Shown: in pieces, positions 2,351-25,978 of the stretch
Layout of the letters: every line of letters starts with the position of its first letter
How positions within the stretch are numbered: the first letter of the stretch is position 1
Position numbers and translations under genes: made by a program
Notes under the pieces: generated by a model
Told to the model about the DNA's origin: nothing
The model's input: only the letters and a program-made list of their open reading frames with translations
The model's database searches: none
IMG/VR virus record: IMGVR_UViG_3300031952_000121
Coordinates: 1-25,978 of that record
Origin: a virus
Direction: 5' to 3' (one strand)
DNA length: 25,978 nt

Positions 2351-5300
2351 GCTATCCGCCACCCCTCGATCTCATCGACAACCCCTAGATCCTCCTCTTC
2401 TCCGGAGGGAATCCCTATCTTGCGGACCAATTTCGCCACCAGAATTTTCATCGAAGCCCCGGTTATCGGGTGGAGGATCTGCAGTATATCCCCCTCTTCC
2501 TCCTGCAGATGGGCAATCTTATATAATTTCACCCGGGATCTCTGCAGCCTGACCACCATGCCTTCAAAGGCCGCCACCTGGTTGCACGCCCCGATCGTGT
2601 TGCATAAGGAGTCGTTTATCACCGTGGGGATGACTCGCCCCGTCTCGGCCTGGTGGGCGGTATCGTCGTAAGGGGGAATGGACTGGATCGTCTGGCCGAC
2701 TTTGCCGAAGGGCCGGGCATGGACCTGATAATTATAGGCGGCCACGGAACAGATGATATTTAATAGTACTTGTAGCAGAAAAAGCAACATGACCATTGTG
2801 GGGCCGCACCATCCTGGTTTATAAAGATACGAATCGCAACTGTAGGCGATGGCCGCCAGACCGGCGATCGCCGCGATCAGAGCAACCACCACCGGGACCA
2901 TATTGGGTGTCGAGATCGTGATGATGCATCCCAGATCATCGTCCCGGATCGAGGTGATGCTCTCCCCGCCGCCGCCCAGTTTGAAATTGAAGCTCTTTAC
3001 CGACTGGATCACTTCCAGGCGCGGATAACGGCACCGGCGTGAATGGTCATCCGAATACCAGACATCGATATCCTTTTTCCCGCCCCACCAGCCCACCGTG
3101 CCGTTGTAACTGCGGATGGGCTCCTCGCCGAAGAGGCAATCCAGAAACTCCCGGCTTTCGCCGATCACTATTACCCTGTTTATATTGCTCGAGTAACTGA
3201 GGTCGGGTGAGAATTTTAGGATCTTGCCCAGATCCGCATAGATATGGTCGACCGGATTTAGTTCAGATATTTTTTTGAAGGTCACCTTCCCATCCACGTC
3301 CATGCGCATGAAATAACCAAAATGCTCGGCCAGCTGGTCGAGAATTTTTTTCAAATTCATCTCGACCCATTGACGATAAACGGGGGCAGCCGTATCGAAC
3401 ACCGGCACATCCATGTCTTCCATACCCTTACCGGCATGCGTGGAGAGCAGGTCTTCCAGCACGGCTTTCGGGTTGTCGCCGTTATAATGTTCGGAGACAT
3501 CCACGTCTTGCTCGTCCCAGAATTGGCGCTCGTCTTCCGCCGTCACCTGCATCTCCGGGTAGGTCCCCCGCTCATATTCAATGGAGAGATCCTTGACGAA
3601 AAAAGTTCCCTGATTCTGCCAGTAATCCGTCCCCCCGATCTTTTCGCCCAGGCGCAAGGTTATCTTCCGCCCCTTCCTCAAGTAAATGCTCAGGAGCGAA
3701 TTTGAATTGTGCGGGTCAAAAAGATGCCCATCCTTTACCGCAAAAGAAAACGGCGCCGGCGCTCCGTCTATAGAGCTTTCCCTCACATGCTCCCGACCCC
3801 TGGTCAAGTAGGAAGAGAGGTTCAGGCTCGACCCTTCCTTGTCCCATTTTATCGAGGCCTGCTGCAGATCCGTCTCGACCCAGAAGGCAAAGATCGTGCG
3901 GTTGGCGTTTTCCAGGGCTACAACGCATTGGGATTGATTGTAGCCCTGGACCAGGGGAATAGCGTCGGTCCATGACCACATTCCTGAGGAATAGGTCCCC
4001 ACTCGATAAACAGGCTGATGGAGCAAGCCATTGATATTAAATGCGATAATATCATAATAAGAAACGCTCCCAGATTCCCCGGTGATAATCATCTCTGAAG
4101 CAGAATCATAGGCCACCACGGAATAAAGATATCCGTTTGGGTGTCCTGATCGATCCATTCCTGGGACATTTGAGTTATTGAACCTCGTCCAGGTGAGAGT
4201 AACCATATCAAAGACCGCCATGCCCATCATATCTTCGCTCTGCGATGCCGGGACACCCATGTTTTTGGCGCATACGAGAAGGCGATGGGAATCCGCGATG
4301 AAAACATTTTGAATGTAGGTGATAATCGTCGGGAAAGTGGCGTAGGTTGGGATGGAAAACGTTATCACATCCGTTGTGAGATCGATGATGCAAAGCCCTG
4401 ATTTTCCCGATTCAATTGTTCCAGGAGGGTAGAGATTTGAATAAAAAGTCCCATAAATTTTATTGTTTTTATAGGCGAAATGTCCCAATCCGTGCATGGG
4501 GAAAGCGGAATTATTTGAATAATTTATTGTTTTGGTCAATATTCCGGCGGTATAAATCCTAAGCTCGCCCGCATAAATGTCTAACATAGTTCCGCCATTC
4601 GTTGCCTTATATCCAAAGGAAATGATGATTTCGTTGGTGCTAGGAAATACCTGGAAATCTCCCGCAGAGGGATAAACGGTCGAAGTCCCACCGAGTTGTG
4701 CCAAATAATCATTCAACGATGCAGGCTCATTCACCACTTCATGGAGGGTATAACTTGGACCCACCTCCGTCATATCGATATACCCAATATAAAAAAGTCC
4801 TTGGTTTCCGTATGAGTAAGAGAGGAAAAGCAGATAAAGGCGCTTCGCATCTGCGTCCAGGTAGCATTTCACCAATTTCCTGGTCCCGTTTGCACAAGTT
4901 GGCGGATCTATGTTCTTTGTCAAACCATACGTCGGATTGTCTTGAAAATTGAATTGGGTAATCGTATCCGCTTCTGAATCTAAAATGGCGGCATAGTGCT
5001 TTCCAGAATAATCATCCCCGACAATTCCAACATAGTGACCATTGGAATGGCACCGATCAAGAGCGACATATAAAGAAGATTTCCAAATTGAATTGAAAGC
5101 AGGAACCGATGGAATGGAATGGCCCAACGTGTTCCAGCAAGCATCGATCACCCAAGTATCAATGTCAATTCTTAGAACGCAAGATATCCCTATGGTTCCC
5201 GGATTACAGGCGCAATAGATCTTCCGAGCAATTGAATCAAAATGAAGCCCAGACACCCGGATTTCATCCTCACCGCAGTATCCGGTATCAGTTTTATTCA

Positions 5301-6180
5301 TATGAAGTGCGCCGGATTGCTCGGTATAAATCGCATGGATTTGATTGGCGACCTTTTGCGCGGCTACCGGATGGAGCCCGACGGTATCATAGGTCGAGAA
5401 GTTCGTGAAATTCGCCGCATTGGCCCAGGTGGATCCATTGTCCGCGCTGGTCGAGTAATAGACGTTGACCAGCTCATTGTTTCCGCTGGTGGATTCCAGA
5501 TAATCGAACCAGCACCAGATCTCCCCGGTGGCTATCTGGAGGAGATGTGGGTTCTGGATCCGTTTCGAAGCCGTCAAACCGCCGATCGAGCAGGTTCCTT
5601 CCGCCGACCAAGTCGAGAAATCAGAAGACGTTCTCTTGCGGATATAATAAGTGGGCCCGGAGACGGTCTTATCCGCGTAGACCAGAAAATAGCTGTTCGA
5701 GCTCAGACGGATGATGAAAGGGCTGGAAATGACGTGGGCAGCGGTGGACCAGGTGGCGATTTCCGCCTGAGCGGTGACCGTCTCCCCCTCGGGAGTCAGA
5801 ACCAGGGAACGTAGTTTTTCATTGCCCGAATAAGTGCAATGGAGAATGATGCCGATATTTCCGCCGGCCAGTTCGCACAAGGCCGCCTCGTCGGCGGAGT
5901 AATTGGCGGGGAGGGAGATATCCACCCAGTGGAATTCCGTCCGGGAAGCGTCGGTATAAAGATATTTGAAAGCCGCGGTCCCGAAGGTGTAGACCTTGCA
6001 GATCCGGCCGGAGGAATGCATGATAACATTCGGCTTCGATTCATTGGTGGCTTCCGCGGTGAGCCGGACGCCGTCGAAAGGAATGTCATCCACCGCGCCC
6101 GAAGAGATTACTTCGATTATGGGCCGATGGCTGATTCCATCTTGAGCCGCCTGGAGGGTTGGGTCGAGGGCGAGTGACAT
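2347..6180 (-). CDS. Tail hub/tip protein with inserted beta-propeller and TM hairpin
   Basis: This 1277-aa protein appears to be three parts. Residues ~1-45 form a short hub-like N-terminus. Residues ~50-785 carry a long repetitive beta-rich region with sialidase-type Asp-box signatures, the clearest being STSADNGSTW near residue 245 and SSDFSTW near 185, implying a beta-propeller. Residues ~785-1277 carry a tail-hub region (ITLRLGEKIGG, then a segment ending ...VTFKKISELNP). Within the last part are two hydrophobic stretches, about 1094-1114 and 1129-1149, separated by a Cys-containing loop. The hub normally caps the tail tube and anchors the tip; the propeller could bind or cleave a surface glycan. 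Start ATG 6180 abuts the previous stop. The 4000-5100 region is visibly more AT-rich than its neighbours, which suggests acquisition of the propeller. Confidence 0.65.
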   Translation of the reverse strand: MSLALDPTLQAAQDGISHRPIIEVISSGAVDDIPFDGVRLTAEATNESKPNVIMHSSGRICKVYTFGTAAFKYLYTDASRTEFHWVDISLPANYSADEAALCELAGGNIGIILHCTYSGNEKLRSLVLTPEGETVTAQAEIATWSTAAHVISSPFIIRLSSNSYFLVYADKTVSGPTYYIRKRTSSDFSTWSAEGTCSIGGLTASKRIQNPHLLQIATGEIWCWFDYLESTSGNNELVNVYYSTSADNGSTWANAANFTNFSTYDTVGLHPVAAQKVANQIHAIYTEQSGALHMNKTDTGYCGEDEIRVSGLHFDSIARKIYCACNPGTIGISCVLRIDIDTWVIDACWNTLGHSIPSVPAFNSIWKSSLYVALDRCHSNGHYVGIVGDDYSGKHYAAILDSEADTITQFNFQDNPTYGLTKNIDPPTCANGTRKLVKCYLDADAKRLYLLFLSYSYGNQGLFYIGYIDMTEVGPSYTLHEVVNEPASLNDYLAQLGGTSTVYPSAGDFQVFPSTNEIIISFGYKATNGGTMLDIYAGELRIYTAGILTKTINYSNNSAFPMHGLGHFAYKNNKIYGTFYSNLYPPGTIESGKSGLCIIDLTTDVITFSIPTYATFPTIITYIQNVFIADSHRLLVCAKNMGVPASQSEDMMGMAVFDMVTLTWTRFNNSNVPGMDRSGHPNGYLYSVVAYDSASEMIITGESGSVSYYDIIAFNINGLLHQPVYRVGTYSSGMWSWTDAIPLVQGYNQSQCVVALENANRTIFAFWVETDLQQASIKWDKEGSSLNLSSYLTRGREHVRESSIDGAPAPFSFAVKDGHLFDPHNSNSLLSIYLRKGRKITLRLGEKIGGTDYWQNQGTFFVKDLSIEYERGTYPEMQVTAEDERQFWDEQDVDVSEHYNGDNPKAVLEDLLSTHAGKGMEDMDVPVFDTAAPVYRQWVEMNLKKILDQLAEHFGYFMRMDVDGKVTFKKISELNPVDHIYADLGKILKFSPDLSYSSNINRVIVIGESREFLDCLFGEEPIRSYNGTVGWWGGKKDIDVWYSDDHSRRCRYPRLEVIQSVKSFNFKLGGGGESITSIRDDDLGCIITISTPNMVPVVVALIAAIAGLAAIAYSCDSYLYKPGWCGPTMVMLLFLLQVLLNIICSVAAYNYQVHARPFGKVGQTIQSIPPYDDTAHQAETGRVIPTVINDSLCNTIGACNQVAAFEGMVVRLQRSRVKLYKIAHLQEEEGDILQILHPITGASMKILVAKLVRKIGIPSGEEEDLGVVDEIEGWRIA

Positions 6181-9443: not shown

Positions 9444-9500
9444 TTCCAATTTGCAATTTGAAATTTGCAATTTGAAATTTGCAGTTTGCAATTTTCAATT
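9444..9500. repeat. AT-rich heptanucleotide-type repeat
   Basis: The whole gap between the tail tube stop (9501) and the chaperone gene is made of alternating ATTTGCA and ATTTGAA units with a few changes near 9480-9500. The period is seven bases. It codes for nothing and has no inverted symmetry that would make it a terminator. It looks like a dispersed host-type repeat inserted between two essential tail genes. Confidence 0.8.
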
Positions 9501-13099: not shown

Positions 13100-15424
13100 T
13101 TATACATTGTGAATGGTCCGCCGAGCGGTGATCGAAACCGCCTCCCTTTCGGAAGAGATTGATTCCAGGCCCCGGAGAGAACTTATGATCTCGATGCTCG
13201 GATCGATGATCACTCCCAAGGCCCCCATGATCAGGATGAGATCGTCCGGAGTGATGGACGATCCCCTTATGTCCGCGAGCAGCATCCTGGCCACGGCCGC
13301 CTGGATCTCCGGGGTGACCGATTGTCCCGCGCACAGGGCCGAAAGAGTCCTGGCCATCTGTAAAGATATCGCTGGGGACAAGCTCACCCCGGTGATTGCC
13401 GCCGCCAGGTTCAGGATGTTTTGAATGGCGACATCCGGGGTCGAACTCTCCCCGGAAAGGGTCGCCAGCAAAGACCGGGCCACGCTCGCCAGTATGTCCG
13501 GGGACACGCTCGCGCCATAGATAATCGCACCCAGGGAGCGCACCGACGTCGCCGAGATCCCCGGAGTGACGCTCGCCCCCGCGATGGCCGCGATCAGGCT
13601 GATGATCCCCTGGAGGGTGATCGAGATATTTGGAGTGACGCTGCTCCCGATAATGGCCGCAGCGAGCGCCCGGACGATCGTGAGGGAAATTTCCGGCGTC
13701 AGGCTCCCCCCGGCGATCGCCGCCGACAGGGCCCTGTTTATTGTTTGGGTGATTCCCGGCGTCGCGCTGGCGCCCTGGATGGAGGCGATCAAGAAATGGA
13801 CAAGTTGCGCGGAGATCTCCGGCGTGAGGCTCTGCCCGGACACGGCCGCCAGTAAGGCGCGGGACATCGCCGCGGCTGCCGAGGAAGTGAGGCTCTGCCC
13901 CGATATCTGGGCGGGCAGCGCCCTTATGGTCGTCGCCCCGATCCCGGGCGTGGCGCTGGCCCCGGAGATCAGTGCTGCCAGGGCGCGGGCCAGGGCCGCG
14001 TTCGCCTGCGGGGTCGAGCTGGCCGCCTGCAGGTTGGCCAGGAGGGCCCTGGATAGGCTGGCCGAGGCCACCGGGGTGAGGCTCTGCCCGGACACGGAAC
14101 CCAGTAGCGCGCGGGCCAGGGCCGCGGAAACGGAAGGAGTGAGGCTCTGCGCCGATATCTGCGCGGGCAGCGCCCTCACGGTCGTCGCCCCGATCCCGGG
14201 CGTGGCGCTGGTCCCGGAGATCAGTGCTGCCAGGGCGCGGGCCAGGGCCGCGTTCGCCTGCGGGGTCGAGCTGGCCGCCTGCAGGTTGGCCAGGAGGGCC
14301 CTGGATAGGCTGGCCGAGGCCACCGGGGTGAGGCTGGCGCCGGTCAGCGCGGAGAGCAGAAGCCGGACCGTGGTCGCCGATATTGCAGGGGTTGAACTGA
14401 TCCCGCCGATGGCCGATAAGATCGCCCGCGTGGAGGTCGACCCAATGCCTGGGGTTAAGCTGGCTCCGGCGATCGCCGCCAGGAGATTGCGGATCTCCCC
14501 CGCCGCCACATACTCATCCGCCCCGATGTCCCAGGTTCCACTTCGAGTTATGCCATCTATGTCATCCAAGAAAAGACCGGACCCGGGATTGGCAACTCCA
14601 AGGTCTTTTGCTCCAACATCAGCCGCAGCAAGGTGGAAATCGGTTGCACCGACAAAGGTGAAAGTATGGGAAACATGGTCATGGATGTTTCCTCCGCCTG
14701 TAACTGTGTATCCAATGGCTGCGTCGTCCGTAGCATTATAATCAGTCCCAGCCGCAAAAGTTCCCGTTGCTCCCGTTGTGCATCCATTAAGGATATTATT
14801 GATTCCTATAACACCATTTTCAATATTATTTAGGATACCAACACCGCAACCGCTGATGGTATTATTATATGCCACCATGCTGGAACCACTGCTTAAACGG
14901 ATACCAGAATTTGCATGGTCATAAATTATGTTATTATAAATCTTCCATCCAGAACTATTTGTGTTGTTTTCATAAATGAACTCACTTCCGGTACTGCTAA
15001 CGCACCTAGAGATATTATTAAAAATCCTGACATCTGCAATCGCCCCCGTGCTGCATGTTATGGTATCGCACCCGCCAGTGACGGTAAATTGCAAGTATGA
15101 AATCCTGGTCCATGATGCCAGAATATTAATGGCTGTTGATGAACCTGTAGACATGCGAGACTTAGTATCATCCCAAACCCCAGCATGGCGGTAACTGGTG
15201 CCACCGTAGATATTAATATATTGGGTCGCAGATATGGTCCACCCAGCGATAGTGAAGCCTGTCGTGTCTGCTGTTCCTGCTGTACACCGGCAATCGGCAG
15301 CCGCTATCTCATCCCGAACTCCAGTCAGGTCTCCCTGCTCACCGGCTTCCCAGTCGAAGAGGGAGTCGTAGTCGTAACCTGCGCCAGAATCGGGATCTAT
15401 TACATGTGTTACTGTGGTTGCCAT
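13100..15424 (-). CDS. Beta-helix plus 21-residue-repeat appendage protein
   Basis: This is a 774-aa protein. Residues ~1-310 look like a right-handed parallel beta-helix, with runs such as IFNNISRC, KIYNNIIYDHANSGIRL and YNNTISGCGVGILNN, ending in DIDGITRSGTWDIGADEY, an ending common in secreted beta-helix proteins. Residues ~312-735 are about 20 tandem 21-residue repeats, consensus roughly RALLAxISGxSxTPxIxA. The last ~40 residues are non-repetitive. No signal peptide is seen. A trimeric or solenoid fibre on the virion is the likeliest role. The repeat half is very GC-rich and the beta-helix half is AT-richer, so the gene looks like a recent fusion. Its exact location on the virion cannot be read from sequence. 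Confidence 0.65.
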   Translation of the reverse strand: MATTVTHVIDPDSGAGYDYDSLFDWEAGEQGDLTGVRDEIAAADCRCTAGTADTTGFTIAGWTISATQYINIYGGTSYRHAGVWDDTKSRMSTGSSTAINILASWTRISYLQFTVTGGCDTITCSTGAIADVRIFNNISRCVSSTGSEFIYENNTNSSGWKIYNNIIYDHANSGIRLSSGSSMVAYNNTISGCGVGILNNIENGVIGINNILNGCTTGATGTFAAGTDYNATDDAAIGYTVTGGGNIHDHVSHTFTFVGATDFHLAAADVGAKDLGVANPGSGLFLDDIDGITRSGTWDIGADEYVAAGEIRNLLAAIAGASLTPGIGSTSTRAILSAIGGISSTPAISATTVRLLLSALTGASLTPVASASLSRALLANLQAASSTPQANAALARALAALISGTSATPGIGATTVRALPAQISAQSLTPSVSAALARALLGSVSGQSLTPVASASLSRALLANLQAASSTPQANAALARALAALISGASATPGIGATTIRALPAQISGQSLTSSAAAAMSRALLAAVSGQSLTPEISAQLVHFLIASIQGASATPGITQTINRALSAAIAGGSLTPEISLTIVRALAAAIIGSSVTPNISITLQGIISLIAAIAGASVTPGISATSVRSLGAIIYGASVSPDILASVARSLLATLSGESSTPDVAIQNILNLAAAITGVSLSPAISLQMARTLSALCAGQSVTPEIQAAVARMLLADIRGSSITPDDLILIMGALGVIIDPSIEIISSLRGLESISSEREAVSITARRTIHNV
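13160..14500 (-). repeat. 63-bp tandem repeat array coding for 21-residue units
   Basis: The repeats lie in frame within the 774-aa gene. Each unit has Arg-Ala-Leu-Leu at one end and a Ser-x-Thr-Pro turn near its middle. About 20 units can be aligned by eye, most exactly 21 residues, two with one extra residue. The most similar units are four apart. Confidence 0.85.
13882..14335. repeat. 252-bp higher-order repeat (two near-identical copies)
   Basis: Positions 13882-14083 and 14134-14335 are almost identical at an offset of exactly 252 bp, which is four 63-bp units. Only scattered base changes separate them, so this duplication is much younger than the basic 63-bp repeat. Confidence 0.85.
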
Positions 15425-17048: not shown

Positions 17049-17070
17049 GGGGTGATCGGCCGATCACCCC
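17049..17070. repeat. Perfect 22-bp palindrome downstream of major capsid gene
   Basis: GGGGTGATCGG is followed directly by its reverse complement, with no spacer. It lies 31 bp after the major capsid stop and 19 bp before the 58-aa gene start. No T-run follows on the transcript strand, so it is not a typical terminator. Confidence 0.8.
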
Positions 17071-18923: not shown

Positions 18924-19514
18924 TTACCTTTCCTTGAACAGGTCCGGATGCTCTTTGGAGACCGCCAGGACCGCTACTTTGTAACCGACCTTGTTCTTCT
19001 CCGCATAGTCCGAGATCAGTTTGTCCCTCTTCTCCCCATCGGTCCCGCCCGTGTCCGCTCCGCGGGTAGCCACTTCCCGGAACTCAATCTGCGTGGGCAA
19101 CCCGCCGAGGAAGGACTTCATAAACTCGAGGGGCGTCTGCTTCTTCACCGCCTCGCCCTCTTTAAACTCCATCATCGTGGCGGCGTTCCCGATCTCGACC
19201 AGGAAAGGGGTGAGCCCGACGCCGATCTTTTCCATCGCCGGGACGACTCGCCCTTCCTTCTTCAGACCTTCGACGAAAGAAACGATTTCAGTTTTCCGCG
19301 TCTCGCGTTCCTTGGCCGCGACGGCCGCCTCCCGATCCTTGATGCCCTTTTCCTTTTCCGAGAAATCCTTGCCGGCTTTTTCGATCGCCAGGCGCTCCCT
19401 CTCCTTCACCTCGGCCTCGGTGAAGGTTTTGGGCGAAACGACCTGCAGCTGATCCTCCGGGATCTCGTCGATCGCCTTGGTGAAAATGCCCTTCAAAATC
19501 TCTCTTAATCCCAT
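18924..19514 (-). CDS. Scaffold protein from internal start (Mu Z-like)
   Basis: This nested in-frame product begins at the ATG at 19512-19514 and has 196 aa: MGLREILKGIFTKAIDEIP, then long charged coiled coil with ERERLAIEKAGKDFSEKEKG and later GGLPTQIEFREV. A strong AAGGAGG lies seven bases upstream, inside the protease codons. Mu itself makes scaffold Z from an internal start of gene I. The protein guides capsid assembly and is then lost or cleaved. The start is supported by the ribosome binding site, not proven. Confidence 0.8.
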   Translation of the reverse strand: MGLREILKGIFTKAIDEIPEDQLQVVSPKTFTEAEVKERERLAIEKAGKDFSEKEKGIKDREAAVAAKERETRKTEIVSFVEGLKKEGRVVPAMEKIGVGLTPFLVEIGNAATMMEFKEGEAVKKQTPLEFMKSFLGGLPTQIEFREVATRGADTGGTDGEKRDKLISDYAEKNKVGYKVAVLAVSKEHPDLFKER

Positions 19515-20444
19515 CTTCCTTCCTCCTTTGCTTTCGGAATATTCTCCGATCTTGAATTTTTTCTCCTTTTCCTGTAAACGCCGGTTTATAATTCCACGCT
19601 CCTCGGAGCTGTATTGCGCCTGGTTGTCCGGCTTTCCCCAGTAGGCCGCGGCTGCCCGCGTCTGGTCCGCGTTGGGGCACGGGTAACGGTAATTGACCGG
19701 ATCCAGGAATTCATCGTCGGGGACGGCCGCCCATTCCCCCGGCTTGGTCACGTGCCCATCTTCCTTGGCCGCAATCCCGTATTTTTTCGCCCGCGCCTCC
19801 TGCGCTTTCTTTTCTTCCTCCCGGTCCTGGAATTCGACCGTGACCCCTTCGCCGCTGAATTTGATATCCGCCAGACCCTTCACCGCCGGCGCCGTCGCCC
19901 CCAGGAAGCCGATGTGTTTAAGGCTCAGTTTGGGCTGCAGGTAAAAGGCGGCACTTCTTTTCTTGAACATCCCCTGCCTTACCATCTCGGCAAATTCCGG
20001 GATCGCGTCGCGCAGCCTGGCGAAGAGAATTTTCCCTTCCCTCTTCAATGCCTCCGTCCAGGCCCAGGCCGGATGGTCTTCTTTCGGGTGCCCGATCACC
20101 GCCGGCGCCTCGTGGTGCCGGGGGTCGTAGTTTTTTATGATCTCGTCCAGGTCCGCTTCGCTCCATTCCCTCTCTTCCCCCGAGGAGTCCCGCTGCTTCC
20201 CGGCCCGGAAGATCTCGATCCATCCGGAGAGTCCCTCGTTATGCTCGGCCTTGGCCACCCACTCGTCTTTCTCATTTTTTTCAAACTTGTTTTTAACCGC
20301 CGCCCAGGCCACGGCGAAGCATTTTTCTTCGTCTCCCTTGTACTGGTCGAAGACGGAATTGAAGGCCGCCATCCAGATCTCCTGGCCGTGCTCCGGCAGG
20401 GCTTTCACCGCATCCGGAAGTTCCTCTTTTTTGCCGTATGGCAT
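18924..20444 (-). CDS. Mu I-like prohead protease with N-terminal ChaB domain and C-terminal scaffold
   Basis: This is a 506-aa protein. Residues 1-~66 look like a ChaB domain (MPYGKKEELPDAVKALPEHG, then FNSVFDQYKGDEEKCFAVAW and WAAVKNKFEKNE). Residues ~72-195 resemble the Mu gpI protease: IEIFRAGKQRD, HHEAPAVIGHPKEDHPAWAW, MFKKRSAAFYLQP, LKHIGFLGATAPAVKGL. His119 and Ser164 are the candidate catalytic residues by alignment from memory. Residues ~200-300 are a charged linker, including a second short YPCPN...YWGKPDNQAQYSS segment. From Met311 on is a coiled-coil scaffold that can also be made on its own. Gene order (gpG, I/Z, capsid) is as in Mu. ChaB is normally a stand-alone 75-aa protein; its fusion to the phage protease is unusual. 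Confidence 0.85.
   Translation of the reverse strand: MPYGKKEELPDAVKALPEHGQEIWMAAFNSVFDQYKGDEEKCFAVAWAAVKNKFEKNEKDEWVAKAEHNEGLSGWIEIFRAGKQRDSSGEEREWSEADLDEIIKNYDPRHHEAPAVIGHPKEDHPAWAWTEALKREGKILFARLRDAIPEFAEMVRQGMFKKRSAAFYLQPKLSLKHIGFLGATAPAVKGLADIKFSGEGVTVEFQDREEEKKAQEARAKKYGIAAKEDGHVTKPGEWAAVPDDEFLDPVNYRYPCPNADQTRAAAAYWGKPDNQAQYSSEERGIINRRLQEKEKKFKIGEYSESKGGRKMGLREILKGIFTKAIDEIPEDQLQVVSPKTFTEAEVKERERLAIEKAGKDFSEKEKGIKDREAAVAAKERETRKTEIVSFVEGLKKEGRVVPAMEKIGVGLTPFLVEIGNAATMMEFKEGEAVKKQTPLEFMKSFLGGLPTQIEFREVATRGADTGGTDGEKRDKLISDYAEKNKVGYKVAVLAVSKEHPDLFKER
19522..19528 (-). promoter_or_regulatory. Internal ribosome binding site for scaffold start
   Basis: AAGGAGG on the minus strand, seven bases before ATG 19514, sits within the Ser-Lys-Gly-Gly-Arg-Lys codons of the protease. 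It matches the Shine-Dalgarno consensus, and its position decides the nested start. Confidence 0.8.
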
Positions 20445-21313: not shown

Positions 21314-21829
21314 GACCCCTCACTTGCATCCCCATCCGTTCGGGGGATAATGCGTATTCCAGAAAGGATCATCCGCCGGAAGGACCAGGTTGTACCATTT
21401 CATGTGCTCCGGCCGCTTCTCGATCGAGGTTGAAGCCACGTATCTCCAATATGGCCTGGCTGCCAGGACATCCGGATCGCTCATCTGGGCGTAATGCCCG
21501 GCGCTGTAAGCCACGCTCACGTTGGTATTGAAGATAACCCCCGTTCTCCATCCCCGACCGCCTTTGTAGCTCCAGCCGTATTTTTGAATGATCTGATCGA
21601 AAGCCTTCCGGAAATCCTGGATCGTGGTCCCCTCGGCGATCCCGCTATCGACGGCGGTCCGCAAATCCGCGAGGAGGTCATCCTTCATCGCCCCGGCCAC
21701 GGTAAAGGCCCGCGTGTGCATCTCTTTCCAGAGGTCCGTCCAGGCCCTGGTGGGCAGATTCACCTTCTGCCGGAAAAAGGCGATGGCCTCATCAAAAGGC
21801 AGATTCAGATATTCAGCGCTGGGCGGCAT
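21110..21829 (-). CDS. MuF-type head morphogenesis protein (gp30) with in-frame TGA
   Basis: The frame opens at ATG 21829, overlapping the portal gene by 17 bp. Residues ~1-70 are helical (LPFDEAIAFFRQK, LLADLRTAVDSGIAEGTTIQ), and residues ~85-170 carry the MuF landmarks GGRGWRTGVIFNTN, SVAYSAGHYAQM and LPADDPFWNTHYPPNGWGCK. TGA at 21320-21322 (codon 170) follows Cys-Lys, where the family normally reads WGCRCR, so TGA replaces the second Cys; a single base change from TGC would do. The same frame continues for 69 codons with family-like sequence (NLSIREVERL ... GIDPGWDYNPGK) to a stop at 21110. MuF proteins join head and portal and take part in packaging or ejection. Either selenocysteine insertion or a nonsense mutation explains this; a short form of 169 aa results if TGA stops. 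Confidence 0.85.
21288..21304 (-). promoter_or_regulatory. SECIS-like hairpin downstream of in-frame TGA
   Basis: In RNA the segment folds as UCCAUC - CGGGA - GGUGGA, a 6-bp stem with one U-G pair and a 5-nt loop whose second base is G. It starts 15 nt after the TGA. Bacterial selenocysteine elements are hairpins just downstream of UGA with a G among the first loop bases, so size and distance fit. Short hairpins are also common by chance. Confidence 0.3.
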
Positions 21830-23312
21830 CGAACCTCCCCGACAAATCCGCCAGGGTCATGGCCCGCTGTATCAGGTTTCCAAGGGATGCCGGGTCCATC
21901 CGGCCGTGAGCCTCGATCATCTTGTTCCGGAATTCCTCGAGGGATTGACAGTTCCGGAGAAGAGCCTCGATCGGCATCATCAGGTCATCTGTGGAAGCCT
22001 CCGCCAACGCCCTATCCGTGATCCCGTCGATCGTCGATGCGGGCAGGCCCCTTTCCGAGAATTGCGGCGTTCCCGGAAACAGGCCGGCACCGGCGGGAGG
22101 CACAACCAATTCATCATCTTCCTCCGGCTCCGGTATGTCGTAGGTCTCATAAAAATATCTCTTCGGCGCCGGCACTCCGATTTCCCGCACCAGGATCTTA
22201 TCTCTATCCGCCAGGGCTTTGAGGTCCTTCTCCGGCTGGGTTCGCACCCAGAGTTTGGGGTAAACCGCCTGCACCCCGAAGTTGAAATCCACGATCCAGC
22301 GAATCAGGGTGGCATTGAGGCATTCACAGAGCAGGTCCGCATCGGCCTTCACGTAATCGGCACGGATGTCAACGGCCTGCTCCTCGCTGCCCAGTTTGCC
22401 GGGGGTCGCCTCGGCTGATGCGGTATGGCCCAGGACCGCCTTGCTGATCTGCTTGTCCATGAATTCGCACAGGGATTCATAGGTATTGATCGAGCTCTGC
22501 CGCGCGGCCTCGATCAATTCAATCAACATCCCATCCGGAGTGATGACCGCGGACTCCTGCTGCATGGCCCCCAGGGCTTCGAGGAGTTTGTCTTGCTCCT
22601 CTTTATCGGTGCCGGGCGGATACTTTCCCCAGGGGGTGGGGGCCCCGAATTTCTCCGCGAAAATCACCCAGAACTTGATGCCGTGTTTCTTGAACCAGAC
22701 GGGCCACCAGCACTTTTGCCCCAGGCCTTTGCCGTAGGGGTTATCCGATGATCCATAGGTAAAGATGATGAATTTGCGGTCCGGGACCGGCTCCCCCTCG
22801 ATCATGGAACTGGGTGTCAGAAGGCGGAGCTCGCGCTCAGGGGTGAATATGAACCGGCGCGGGTGTTTGGCCAGGATCTTATCGATCAATATCTTGCCGT
22901 TCGAATACTGCCACATGATCTCCGCGCCATAGAAGCCGTAGAGGATCCCCTGGAGCATCTCCTGCCGCGCCTGGTCGAAATTGCAGGAGAGGAGGACCTG
23001 TTTCACGAAGTCGGCTATTTCCTGCGCCTTCTTTTCTTCCGCGGTCGGCCGCCGCCGGTCCGCGCTCGGCTGCGCCGGATCCACCTGCCATTCCTTATTG
23101 ACCACCGCCAGGTAGCGCGTCTGGAACACGGAACTCGCATGCGCGTCCCGGTCCACCTCGTCGTAGAGTTTAATTCCCTTACCGGCCGATTCGGAAAGAA
23201 GGACCGGGTCCGGATTCTCCAGGCGCTTCAACCAGCCGGCGAAGATCTCGATGTCCTTCGCCGCTGTGGCGACCTCGTTGATTTCCGGTTTTTTGACTGC
23301 TTCGTCAGCCAT
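21813..23312 (-). CDS. Mu gp29-like portal protein (DUF935)
   Basis: This 499-aa protein forms the DNA entry vertex of the head. Landmarks that fit DUF935 include LYDEVDRDAHASSVFQTRYLAV, FDQARQEMLQGILYGFYGAEIMW, KYPPGTDKEEQDKLLEALG, ISKAVLGHTASAEATPGKLGSEEQAVDIRADYV and LNATLIRWIVDFNFG. The last ~90 residues (from PEEDDELVVP) are the flexible end. Length matches the family. AGGAAAGGGAA precedes the ATG. It overlaps the MuF gene by 17 bp, and the usual terminase-portal-MuF order is kept. Confidence 0.92.
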   Translation of the reverse strand: MADEAVKKPEINEVATAAKDIEIFAGWLKRLENPDPVLLSESAGKGIKLYDEVDRDAHASSVFQTRYLAVVNKEWQVDPAQPSADRRRPTAEEKKAQEIADFVKQVLLSCNFDQARQEMLQGILYGFYGAEIMWQYSNGKILIDKILAKHPRRFIFTPERELRLLTPSSMIEGEPVPDRKFIIFTYGSSDNPYGKGLGQKCWWPVWFKKHGIKFWVIFAEKFGAPTPWGKYPPGTDKEEQDKLLEALGAMQQESAVITPDGMLIELIEAARQSSINTYESLCEFMDKQISKAVLGHTASAEATPGKLGSEEQAVDIRADYVKADADLLCECLNATLIRWIVDFNFGVQAVYPKLWVRTQPEKDLKALADRDKILVREIGVPAPKRYFYETYDIPEPEEDDELVVPPAGAGLFPGTPQFSERGLPASTIDGITDRALAEASTDDLMMPIEALLRNCQSLEEFRNKMIEAHGRMDPASLGNLIQRAMTLADLSGRFDAAQR

Positions 23313-23379
23313 TTCCCTTTCCTATGGCCGCGCCGCGCGCGCTCCTACAATCCGCAATCCGCAATCCGCAATCCGCAAT
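23313..23379. repeat. AATCCGC heptamer repeat plus GC-rich palindromic unit
   Basis: The gap between terminase stop and portal start is filled with about four AATCCGC units (23348-23379) next to a palindrome-like CGCGCGCGG-type segment (23324-23346) reading TGTAGGAGCGCGCGCGGC on the minus strand, a REP-like unit. The terminase stop codon TGA directly adjoins the heptamers. Confidence 0.75.
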
Positions 23380-24912
23380 TCACAGGTAGGTTTCCATCCT
23401 GGTGAAATCCCTCTTTACCCCCGTGCTTTTGTATTCGATCTTCCCCGCCGGCCGGTTCGCCGCCTGGGCGGCCAGGGCCTTGGCCCAGAAATGATCCGCG
23501 TGCCCGGTCTCCTCCGTCTTGTCCGCGTCAAAGCGGAAATGGCCGGTGGAAGTCTCGTATTTCTTGACCGAGTGCAATGAATTGCGGATTGTATTGCTCA
23601 TCGGGATCCGCGACTGGAGGTCCTCGAAATTTTTCTTCAGCCCCGTGGCGAGCGCTTCTTTACTGGCCACGGTGAAGTCGATCCCCTCCACCTTCCATTC
23701 CCCGAACTTCTCAATGGCTTCCTCGGCGATCTGCATGCCCAGACCCGTCTGGTCGATGCAGGCCCTTTTCATCCCCGGATGGCTTAAGAGTTGAAATAGG
23801 ATTCTCTTCTGCACGAAGAAGGGCTGCTTGAGCATCTCGATCACCGTCCGGGTCCAGGCCACCCCGTCCTTCAGCTCATCGAGCCAGATCACCGAAAGGT
23901 CCCGCTTCCGCGCCACGTCGAACCCAAGGTACAAATCCCCCACAACCCCCCTTTGGAAAAGGGGGGCAGGGGGGATTTGCTGGAGGAGAGGAGGTTCGAG
24001 GTTGGTGCGGCGGAATTCCTTGTAAGCGTCCTTCGCTTCATCCAGCAAAGCCTTCGCCCAGTCGGGCGTCGTTTCGCATTCGTCGTTCTCCACTGAGGCG
24101 ATGAGGTCATAGGTCAGGAAGGCCGTGGCCTCGTCCAGGAACTCCACCTCGTATTCCTGCGCCCAACCTTCATCGTCCCCGAAACCATTTTTAAGTTCCT
24201 CCACGGTCGTGGGCTTCCCGCTTTCATCCCGGAGCACCAACCCTTCTTTAATCGCCACCTGGATCGGCACCACGTGCTTGGAATACCCGTTGTCCGCCGT
24301 GCAGAGCTCGTAAAATTTATTCTTCTTGCCGAAGGGCGTCGAAATGACCCGGATCTTGTACCCCCGGGTGATGGTGGGATAGAGCGCGCGCCAGATGGCC
24401 CGGCTGTCCTTGTGCAGGGCGAATTCGTCCAGGAGGATGTTGGCGCTCCAGCCCCGGGCCGTGTCCGGGTTGGCCGGCAGCCCGATGATCCGTGACCCGT
24501 TGGGGAATACGATCTCCAGCATCTTATATTCGGCGTCGTCGCCCTTGAACGTCCCCTCGACCTCTTCTACGGCCACGCCGATCGCCTTGGCGTGGACCGT
24601 GGCCTGGACGATGAGCTGTTTGGACTGCCTTTCCCCACGGGAGAGGCAGACCCACATGGTCTTGTGCTCGTAGGAGTCGAGCACCGCCTCGAGCGTCGCC
24701 CCGAAGGTCTTCCCCCCCTGCCGTGTCACCCGCCCGACTTTAAAGCGCGACTTATCCTCCACCCACCGCTTCTGGTAGATGGTCAGCGGGATCAGAGGCA
24801 ATTGCGGATTGCGGATTGCGGATTGCGGATCGGTTTTTTTGCCCTTTGCCGAATCTGCGTAATCTGCGAAATCTGCGGATATATCTTTAGGCCGTTGTGC
24901 CCGTGATGCCAT
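23380..24912 (-). CDS. Large terminase subunit (Mu gp28-like), with repeat-derived peptide insertions
   Basis: This 510-aa protein is the packaging motor ATPase and nuclease. Walker-A-like RQGGKT lies at 64-69, Walker B ILLDEFAL near 160, and nuclease LGFDVARKRD, with Asp332 as a likely metal ligand, is followed by CIDQTGLGMQIAEEA. It begins inside the gp27-like gene (26-bp overlap). Residues ~11-37 are encoded by two short repeats: three 9-base units giving ADFADYADS, then AATCCGC-type heptamers giving DPQSAIRNPQ. Residues ~312-327 (IPPAPLFQRGVVGD) come from a 46-bp palindromic repeat exactly at the ATPase/nuclease linker. All three keep frame, so the gene may still work. Confidence 0.92.
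   Translation of the reverse strand: MASRAQRPKDISADFADYADSAKGKKTDPQSAIRNPQLPLIPLTIYQKRWVEDKSRFKVGRVTRQGGKTFGATLEAVLDSYEHKTMWVCLSRGERQSKQLIVQATVHAKAIGVAVEEVEGTFKGDDAEYKMLEIVFPNGSRIIGLPANPDTARGWSANILLDEFALHKDSRAIWRALYPTITRGYKIRVISTPFGKKNKFYELCTADNGYSKHVVPIQVAIKEGLVLRDESGKPTTVEELKNGFGDDEGWAQEYEVEFLDEATAFLTYDLIASVENDECETTPDWAKALLDEAKDAYKEFRRTNLEPPLLQQIPPAPLFQRGVVGDLYLGFDVARKRDLSVIWLDELKDGVAWTRTVIEMLKQPFFVQKRILFQLLSHPGMKRACIDQTGLGMQIAEEAIEKFGEWKVEGIDFTVASKEALATGLKKNFEDLQSRIPMSNTIRNSLHSVKKYETSTGHFRFDADKTEETGHADHFWAKALAAQAANRPAGKIEYKSTGVKRDFTRMETYL
23933..23978. repeat. Palindromic repeat inside the terminase gene
   Basis: AAATCCCCC at the left end is matched by GGGGGGATTT at the right, and CCCCCCTTT by AAAGGGGGG in the centre around GGA. 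A second copy is at 25431-25470. It is translated as PPAPLFQRG in the terminase. Confidence 0.9.
24799..24886. repeat. Two short tandem repeats in the terminase 5' end
   Basis: At 24799-24832 about four AT(T)GCGG heptamers occur, and at 24851-24886 three AATCTGCGx nonamers. Both are in frame and code for the N-terminal extension of the large terminase. Confidence 0.85.
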
Positions 24913-25420
24913 AAATCTCTTCCTTGATCATTGTCAGGGCCTCGGGGCTCAGCCCCCGGGCCTTCCCTTTTTCCTCGATGTTCTTCACCGCCTGCCGCGC
25001 CTTATCCCTAACCTCGCGCGCCCACTTCTTCTGGGTGACAGCGGCCCGGTTCAGCCGGGCGATCATAATCCCCATTTTGGAAATATTTGTCTGCTTCGGA
25101 TCTATGTCCTCCATTTTGATCAAAACATTAAACGCTTTTTCCTGGCAAAGCCGGGTCAGCGCCTCGCCCATCGCGCCCTCTTCGTCCCCCACCGCCTCGG
25201 TGATGGCCTTGGCCTGTTCGGTAGCTATCTTGATGGCGGACAGCTTGTTCTCGAATTCCTTCCCGTACCGATGGGCGGCCGACCGCGAAATCTCGAACCC
25301 CTGCTCCTTCAGCCAGCCCGCCAGCCCGTCATAATCGGCGAACCCGCCGGCGATCAGCCGCTTCTCAAAGGCCTCCCGGATATCCCTCGGCAATCTGGAT
25401 ATAGAAGATCTCGGCGGCAT
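24887..25420 (-). CDS. Mu gp27-like DUF3486 protein (small terminase type)
   Basis: This is a 177-aa protein. It opens with PPRSSISRLPRDIREAFEKRL, followed by GFADYDGLAGWLKEQGFEISRSAAHRYGKEF, the DNA-binding-like part typical of DUF3486. The remainder is helical, with MEDIDPKQTNISKMGIMIARLNRAAVTQKKW in the middle and a C-terminus of KARQAVKNIEEKGKARGLSPE. The family occupies the small terminase slot in Mu-like phages and is thought to recognise packaging DNA. Length and position just before the large terminase fit. The start has GGGAG six bases upstream. Confidence 0.92.
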   Translation of the reverse strand: MPPRSSISRLPRDIREAFEKRLIAGGFADYDGLAGWLKEQGFEISRSAAHRYGKEFENKLSAIKIATEQAKAITEAVGDEEGAMGEALTRLCQEKAFNVLIKMEDIDPKQTNISKMGIMIARLNRAAVTQKKWAREVRDKARQAVKNIEEKGKARGLSPEALTMIKEEIYGITGTTA

Positions 25421-25430
25421 TCAAACTCCC

Positions 25431-25505
25431 AAATCTTCCCCCCTTTGGAAAAGGGGGACTGGGGGGATTTCAATCCGCAATCCGCAATCCGCAATCCGCA
25501 ATTGG
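25431..25505. repeat. Palindromic repeat followed by AATCCGC heptamers
   Basis: 25431-25470 is the second copy of the CCCCCCTTT-GGA-AAAGGGGG palindrome found in the terminase gene. It is followed at 25471-25505 by about four AATCCGC units. Together they fill the gap between the gp26-like and DUF3486 genes. Confidence 0.9.
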
Positions 25506-25506
25506 C

Positions 25507-25821
25507 TCACCACCACACCTTGGGGCGGGCGATCCCCGGAAGGCAATCATCGTTATATTCCACGATTTGCACCCCATGCCAATTGATCTTGGCGAACCAG
25601 ATCGGACGGTCGCGCTCACTGATAGTCAGCAGCCCCCGGTCCGCCAGGTAATCCAGCTCCCTGCGCAGCTCCGTAATCGTGAGATCGGGGATGCAGGGAT
25701 CGATGGCGTTGCGGATAATGGCCTCCGATGCCCCCACCGGCTGGGCGGCATAAAGGGACCGCAGGATCATCCACCGCAATTCTTCCCGCCGCGCTTTTTC
25801 CAGATCCACTTTTCCGCTCAT
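25507..25821 (-). CDS. Mu gp26-like winged-helix protein
   Basis: This is a 104-aa protein. After a helix (RREELRWMILRSLYAAQPVG), a helix-turn-helix-like stretch (ASEAIIRNAIDPCIPDLTITELRRELDYLADRG) and a beta-wing (LLTISERDRPIWFAKINWHG) follow, the layout of winged-helix proteins often labelled ArsR-like in Mu-type prophages. It lies between DUF2730 and DUF3486, the gp26 slot. Its ATG overlaps the DUF2730 stop as ATGA. Whether it regulates transcription or acts in head assembly is not settled. Confidence 0.85.
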   Translation of the reverse strand: MSGKVDLEKARREELRWMILRSLYAAQPVGASEAIIRNAIDPCIPDLTITELRRELDYLADRGLLTISERDRPIWFAKINWHGVQIVEYNDDCLPGIARPKVWW

Positions 25822-25978
25822 TCCTCGATCTCCTTTGATTTATTCCCGGCGGAGATTAAGTCCCGCAGGCGGTCCAATTTTGTCAGAATGGTGACCTCGT
25901 GGCGGATGAAATCCTCCCGCCGCTCATAGGAGAGCGGGAGATCCGCCTTCATCTCCAGGACCTCCCTCTCCAGCGTCT
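25818..25978 (-). CDS. DUF2730-like protein, C-terminal part (gene continues past the right edge)
   Basis: The frame runs in from the right edge and stops at TGA 25818-25820. The 52 visible residues (LEREVLEMKADLPLSYERRE, then DFIRHEVTILTKLDRLRDLI) match the C-terminal pattern of DUF2730 (gp25 slot in Mu-like phages), a small protein with an N-terminal membrane segment not visible here. Coupled to the gp26-like gene by ATGA overlap. Function is unknown in the family. Confidence 0.85.
   Translation of the reverse strand, partial: TLEREVLEMKADLPLSYERREDFIRHEVTILTKLDRLRDLISAGNKSKEIEE

Follow-up and report, generated by a model that had tools for sequence, protein, structure and literature searches.

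The window analysed here is the whole of a 25,978-bp virus record from a Mu-like phage; it is a virus contig, and the host genome is not part of the record. Its large terminase gene is flanked by the genes for a Mu-type portal and a Mu gp27-like protein (Table 1). We assign the terminase to the Mu gp28-like group from its Pfam matches to Terminase_6N and Terminase_6C (residues 64-267 and 330-481) and from the conserved ATPase and nuclease residues, of which G67, E163, D332, D387 and D473 are invariant among 30 relatives and K68 is nearly so. A palindromic repeat falls in the linker between the two Pfam matches. The ATPase and nuclease domains on either side of it both look intact, and the protein probably keeps functioning despite the insert. 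In the AlphaFold2 model the flanking domains are well predicted, with an overall pTM of only 0.51, and pLDDT drops below 50 at residues 1-38 and 312-320, the latter being the sole internal segment of the terminase below that value. These two stretches match the two places in which the protein bears repeats. Elsewhere in the window, a head-region gene (18924-20444) has a ChaB domain at its start (Pfam PF06150, E 7e-19), and the gene at 13100-15424 encodes a protein with many repeats of about 21 residues and contains a 252-bp direct duplication of 90% identity (13809-14312).

The terminase repeat (AAATCCCCCACAACCCCCCTTTGGAAAAGGGGGGCAGGGGGGATTT) is a 46-bp imperfect inverted repeat whose arms can be extended by one further C/G pair. 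It touches 16 codons (QIPPAPLFQRGVVGDL), and residues 314-322 read PPAPLFQRG. Its predicted RNA fold has an MFE of -39 kcal/mol, as against -20.8 +/- 3.2 for dinucleotide shuffles (z -5.8; none of 200 as low). Among 23,709 54-nt windows from 96 terminase genes, the one that holds it ranks in the top 0.02% for stability. The second copy shares a 33-nt block with the terminase copy at 94% identity; both stand singly, 1.5 kb apart. At the site of the second copy the empty state is clear, since L014 and L004 show a tight stop-start junction there. Nothing in Rfam matched positions 23000-25978, and a GTAG or CGTC end tag is absent from both ends of both copies. The N-terminal tail of the terminase, which carries one of the 7-nt arrays in Table 1, holds a AATCTGCG-type repeat too (ISADFADYAD; 24830-24912), and repeat-like peptides occur in the corresponding tails of L011 (PPSRGRVRVGG) and L006 (NSELQTPNF). 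A 7-nt array of another type (CAATTTGAAATTTG) lies between genes at 9447-9493. A perfect intergenic palindrome at 17049-17070 (GGGGTGATCGGCCGATCACCCC), followed by TTATT, may be a terminator or another repeat.

Table 1. Genes and repeats in the terminase region of the window, and repeat families in the terminase linkers of the clade.
Feature	Position	Strand	Remarks
Mu-type portal	21813..23312	-	orthologues in L009 and L019 bear their own in-frame repeats
7-nt array (CAATCCG/ATTGCGG type)	23348..23380	.	in the gap from terminase stop to portal start; not present at the L014 junction
Large terminase (Mu gp28-like), 510 aa	23380..24912	-	Terminase_6N and Terminase_6C
Family A palindromic repeat	23933..23978	-	in frame as terminase residues 312-327
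7-nt array (CAATCCG/ATTGCGG type)	24800..24830	-	read in frame as PQSAIRNPQLP in the N-terminal tail of the terminase
Mu gp27-like protein (PHROG terminase small subunit)	24887..25420	-	
Second family A copy, shortened arm, 40 bp	25431..25470	-	in the space separating the gp27-like gene from the next one
7-nt array (CAATCCG/ATTGCGG type)	25471..25503	.	beside the second palindrome copy; absent at the L014 and L004 junctions
Family A			terminase linker of the window and L003
Family B, GTAGGGGCGATTC type			terminase linker of L014 and L056
Family C, GTAGGGAAGGGTTT type			terminase linker of L009, L013, L010 and L062
Family D, GTAACTCAGGG type			terminase linker of L005
Family E, GGGACACTTCCC type			terminase linker of L008

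Related terminases were extracted and aligned with the window protein. Its linker measures 21 residues, whereas those of relatives without the repeat measure 14-15 (L006, L011, L012, L069) or 19 (L004), so that most near relatives without the repeat have linkers shorter by 6-7 residues. Since the repeat touches 16 codons, part of the native linker has been replaced. The right end of the repeat doubles as the native G-D-L codons that precede the first nuclease strand. Neither a target-site duplication nor a clean empty site emerged at the linker, where the flanks differ and some native residues have been replaced.

The family A pattern was searched for in 395 genomes sampled from the phylum of a Geobacteraceae MAG; it matched 89 of them, and a reversed-pattern control matched none. 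A single genome gave up to 96 and 98 matches on the two strands, numbers that are upper bounds on copy number, since a symmetric palindrome may count once per strand. One genome (G204) contains a core identical to that of the window repeat, and the class is present in Nitrospirae MAGs too. Family B has 20 sites in another genome (G070). In 652 kb of repeat-rich genomes, with genes called simply as long ORFs, 55 of 63 family A copies are intergenic, as opposed to 14% of random positions; six overlap a gene edge, and the two inside a gene are a pair in one doubtful ORF. Neighbouring copies are bimodally spaced, 15 of 28 pairs lying 7-45 nt apart. As a short, multi-copy and mainly intergenic palindrome, family A has the properties of a REP. 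These results bear out the first-pass annotation where it described an inverted repeat in the terminase with a further copy between genes, and where it took the segment for a dispersed repeat inserted into the ATPase-nuclease linker: the relatives lacking it have shorter linkers, and its class is spread through bacterial genomes. The same annotation suggested that the repeat spreads in coding DNA. As a general habit this is not supported, given the predominance of intergenic copies; the in-frame state of the terminase repeat is better read as the outcome of selection afterwards. A general pre-adaptation through frame openness was considered and rejected, since the window copies are open in six of six frames and the 63 genomic copies average 3.3 of six.

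The 7-nt array was found in 20 of the 395 genomes, 17 of them positive for family A (hypergeometric 2e-9, kinship ignored). Genomes that share the array and family A are candidate hosts, which is no proof of infection. Searching 29 genomes from the class of G204 for the terminase yielded only one distant partial match, of 46%.

Y1 transposase genes are present in all 26 of the repeat-rich genomes tested and in 15 of 26 repeat-free ones (p 0.0003, kinship ignored). At one of 15 Y1 loci (L206) the Y1 domain has a family A repeat about 110 nt away, on one side with none on the other; within 2 kb of the remaining 14 none was found. At L200, a hairpin like the element E of L008 adjoins a Y1 transposase gene. 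With a nearby repeat at only one of the 15 loci, a RAYT is a candidate and not an established mobiliser of family A. No transposase can be linked to this family with confidence; Y1 presence correlates with the repeats.

Insertions recur in the terminase linker and make it a hot spot. Within one clade it holds at least five unrelated palindromes (families A-E; Table 1) or none, the latter in seven members (L004, L006, L007, L011, L012, L060 and L069). When 96 terminases were scanned for ungapped palindromes, a test that leaves out the window's own repeat with its internal loop, all five palindromes scoring 12 or more sat at query positions 311-314, that is, in the linker. In families B and C an initial GTAG belongs to the palindrome itself. 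On a tree of the terminase core, with the linker excluded, the repeat label changes at least seven times; because some of the 17 sequences of the clade are partial and some near-identical, the independent changes number about seven. The first-pass annotation also suggested a long stay of the prophage in this host lineage; acquisition can be quick, since different repeats occupy terminases that are 95-97% identical: L008 (family E) and L009 (family C) are 95.3% identical in the core, and L010 (C) and L056 (B) 96.6%. Between L009 (3257-3285) and L013 (608-636), whose compared core is 99.6% identical, the palindromes show paired differences that leave the stem intact (AAGGGTTTGAAACCCTT and AACGGTTTCAAACCGTT), a pattern to be expected from template switching or from replacement by another copy. 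The clade members come from metagenome assemblies, and chimeric contigs could affect single cases, though an effect on as many as ten sequences drawn from several samples is hardly likely.

The window and L003 represent a single phage species, with 97.7% identity over 11 kb. Their terminase genes are mosaic relative to each other, with 72-89% DNA identity in parts and about 100% at residues 273-322 and 423-510, through recombination or chimeric assembly. We therefore rejected L003 as proof that the insert was retained through divergence. The corresponding linker of a distant Acidobacteria terminase (L095, 10925-11053) contains tandem repeats of the GGAAATAGGAAATAGG type.

In-frame repeats occur in three kinds of protein of the related phages: terminase, portal and scaffold-region protein. 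Element E is found in the terminase linker of L008 and in the portal of L009, 94% identical over 68 nt, and the L009 portal has a second repeat-like insert (VGNGLKPFR) in its Portal_Mu region. The C-terminal part of the L019 portal contains NPPQPPFAKGG, and a protein of L101 resembling the 18924-20444 product contains NPPCPPLEKGG. In L009 the portal (3956-6136; 726 aa) is fused to a second C-terminal region, and the family E repeat lies in the joining region.

Our results favor the explanation that a host-type repeat was copied into the terminase linker and survived there by tolerance and selection, which we consider likely. A palindromic repeat of a kind dispersed between genes in bacteria infected by related Mu-like phages would have been copied into the terminase gene, perhaps by REP-type transposition, by template switching between repeats, or by recombination with DNA of the host or of another phage. 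It would have landed in the unstructured ATPase-nuclease linker and replaced part of it, and may have survived because it has no stop codon, keeps the net change in frame, and sits in a linker that tolerates varied length and sequence. Unrelated repeats have entered the same linker in sister phages, with rapid exchange or loss. Repeats may arrive now and then anywhere, and an essential protein would keep only those that stay in frame, contain no stop and lie in an unstructured stretch. The hot spot would then be one of tolerance, since inserts elsewhere in an essential gene would be purged; it is selection, we infer, that accounts for the linker as the site. The explanation should be interpreted with some caution, as the bacterial copies compared come from genomes not tied to this phage as hosts and terminase function is judged by sequence alone.

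The linker could instead be an active exchange site that takes up and swaps strong host hairpins, either through a targeting mobility system or because the hairpin is useful. We consider this unlikely, and the evidence differs for its two forms. In the first, a transposase or recombination system would prefer the linker sequence, so that arrival there would be more frequent than elsewhere. The repeated arrivals at one place agree with this, as do the overlap between the right end of the terminase repeat (GGGGATTTG) and the native GG.GAT.T codons for G-D-L, and the repeats beside Y1 genes at L200 (E-like) and L206 (family A, about 110 nt away). However, the edges of the insert vary between members, the families have no common end sequence, inserts also occur in portal and scaffold-region genes, and 14 of the 15 Y1 loci have no family A repeat within 2 kb, so that targeting appears unlikely. 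In the second form, an mRNA stem-loop (for example, one causing a pause between domains) or a DNA stem-loop would itself be selected, and any strong palindrome would serve. The families differ and yet are mostly palindromic, the paired changes between L009 and L013 preserve the stem, and the strongest palindromes of the 96 genes are all in the linker. A useful hairpin is nevertheless difficult to reconcile with the seven clade members that have no linker palindrome, with the ordinary stability of the linker windows of L006, L011 and L012, and with the disordered N-terminal tail, which also gathers repeats, including non-hairpin 7-mer arrays; the paired changes would be produced equally by template-switch correction or by replacement with another copy, and we regard this form as unlikely too. 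Finally, the view that the segment is an ordinary native linker with a chance resemblance to the repeat draws on the proline-rich linkers of many relatives and is refuted, to near certainty, by the z of -5.8 of the near-palindrome, the second copy within the window, the identical core in a bacterial genome and the different palindromes of sister terminases.

The results show that packaging genes of phages can contain bacterial-type repeats. The clade offers a natural series in which closely similar essential phage proteins differ in the repeat that fills one hinge. Such a series lets one test whether genomic hairpins in linkers are tolerated or used, how often they move, and how new peptide sequence joins proteins. 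We found no report of such repeats in phage terminases in the literature, in a search of incomplete coverage.

Three known systems invite comparison. The GTAG- and CGTC-tagged intragenic REPs are short palindromes, mostly intergenic, often paired and sometimes within genes (Di Nocera et al. 2013, PMC3733652). Flexible linkers or loops were proposed to make the intragenic copies neutral, and in two Xanthomonas species recB carries different REPs at roughly one position (PMC3733652). The present repeats share these general properties, being short, mostly intergenic, often paired and sometimes intragenic palindromes, but here they sit in the terminase of a phage, close sisters have at least five families in a single linker, and neither end of family A is tagged with GTAG or CGTC. 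Rickettsia palindromic elements (RPE) are found in frame in many unrelated protein genes, whose products tolerate them (reviewed in PMC10969869). The likeness drawn here is one of description and lies in the in-frame insertion into conserved protein genes (terminase, portal, scaffold-region); RPE are about 150 bp long and frequent in Rickettsia genes, whereas the present repeats measure about 28-60 bp, are largely intergenic in bacteria and occur in phage packaging genes. With REPINs, or REP doublets with RAYT (PMC3116915), family A has in common its close pairs (15 of 28 at 7-45 nt) and the presence of Y1 in 26 of 26 repeat-rich genomes; it differs in that only one of 15 Y1 loci has a nearby repeat, on one side, and in that the two copies in the window stand alone, 1.5 kb from each other. 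What appears to be new is the phage terminase as the site, the count of families that share a single linker, and their fast turnover among sisters.
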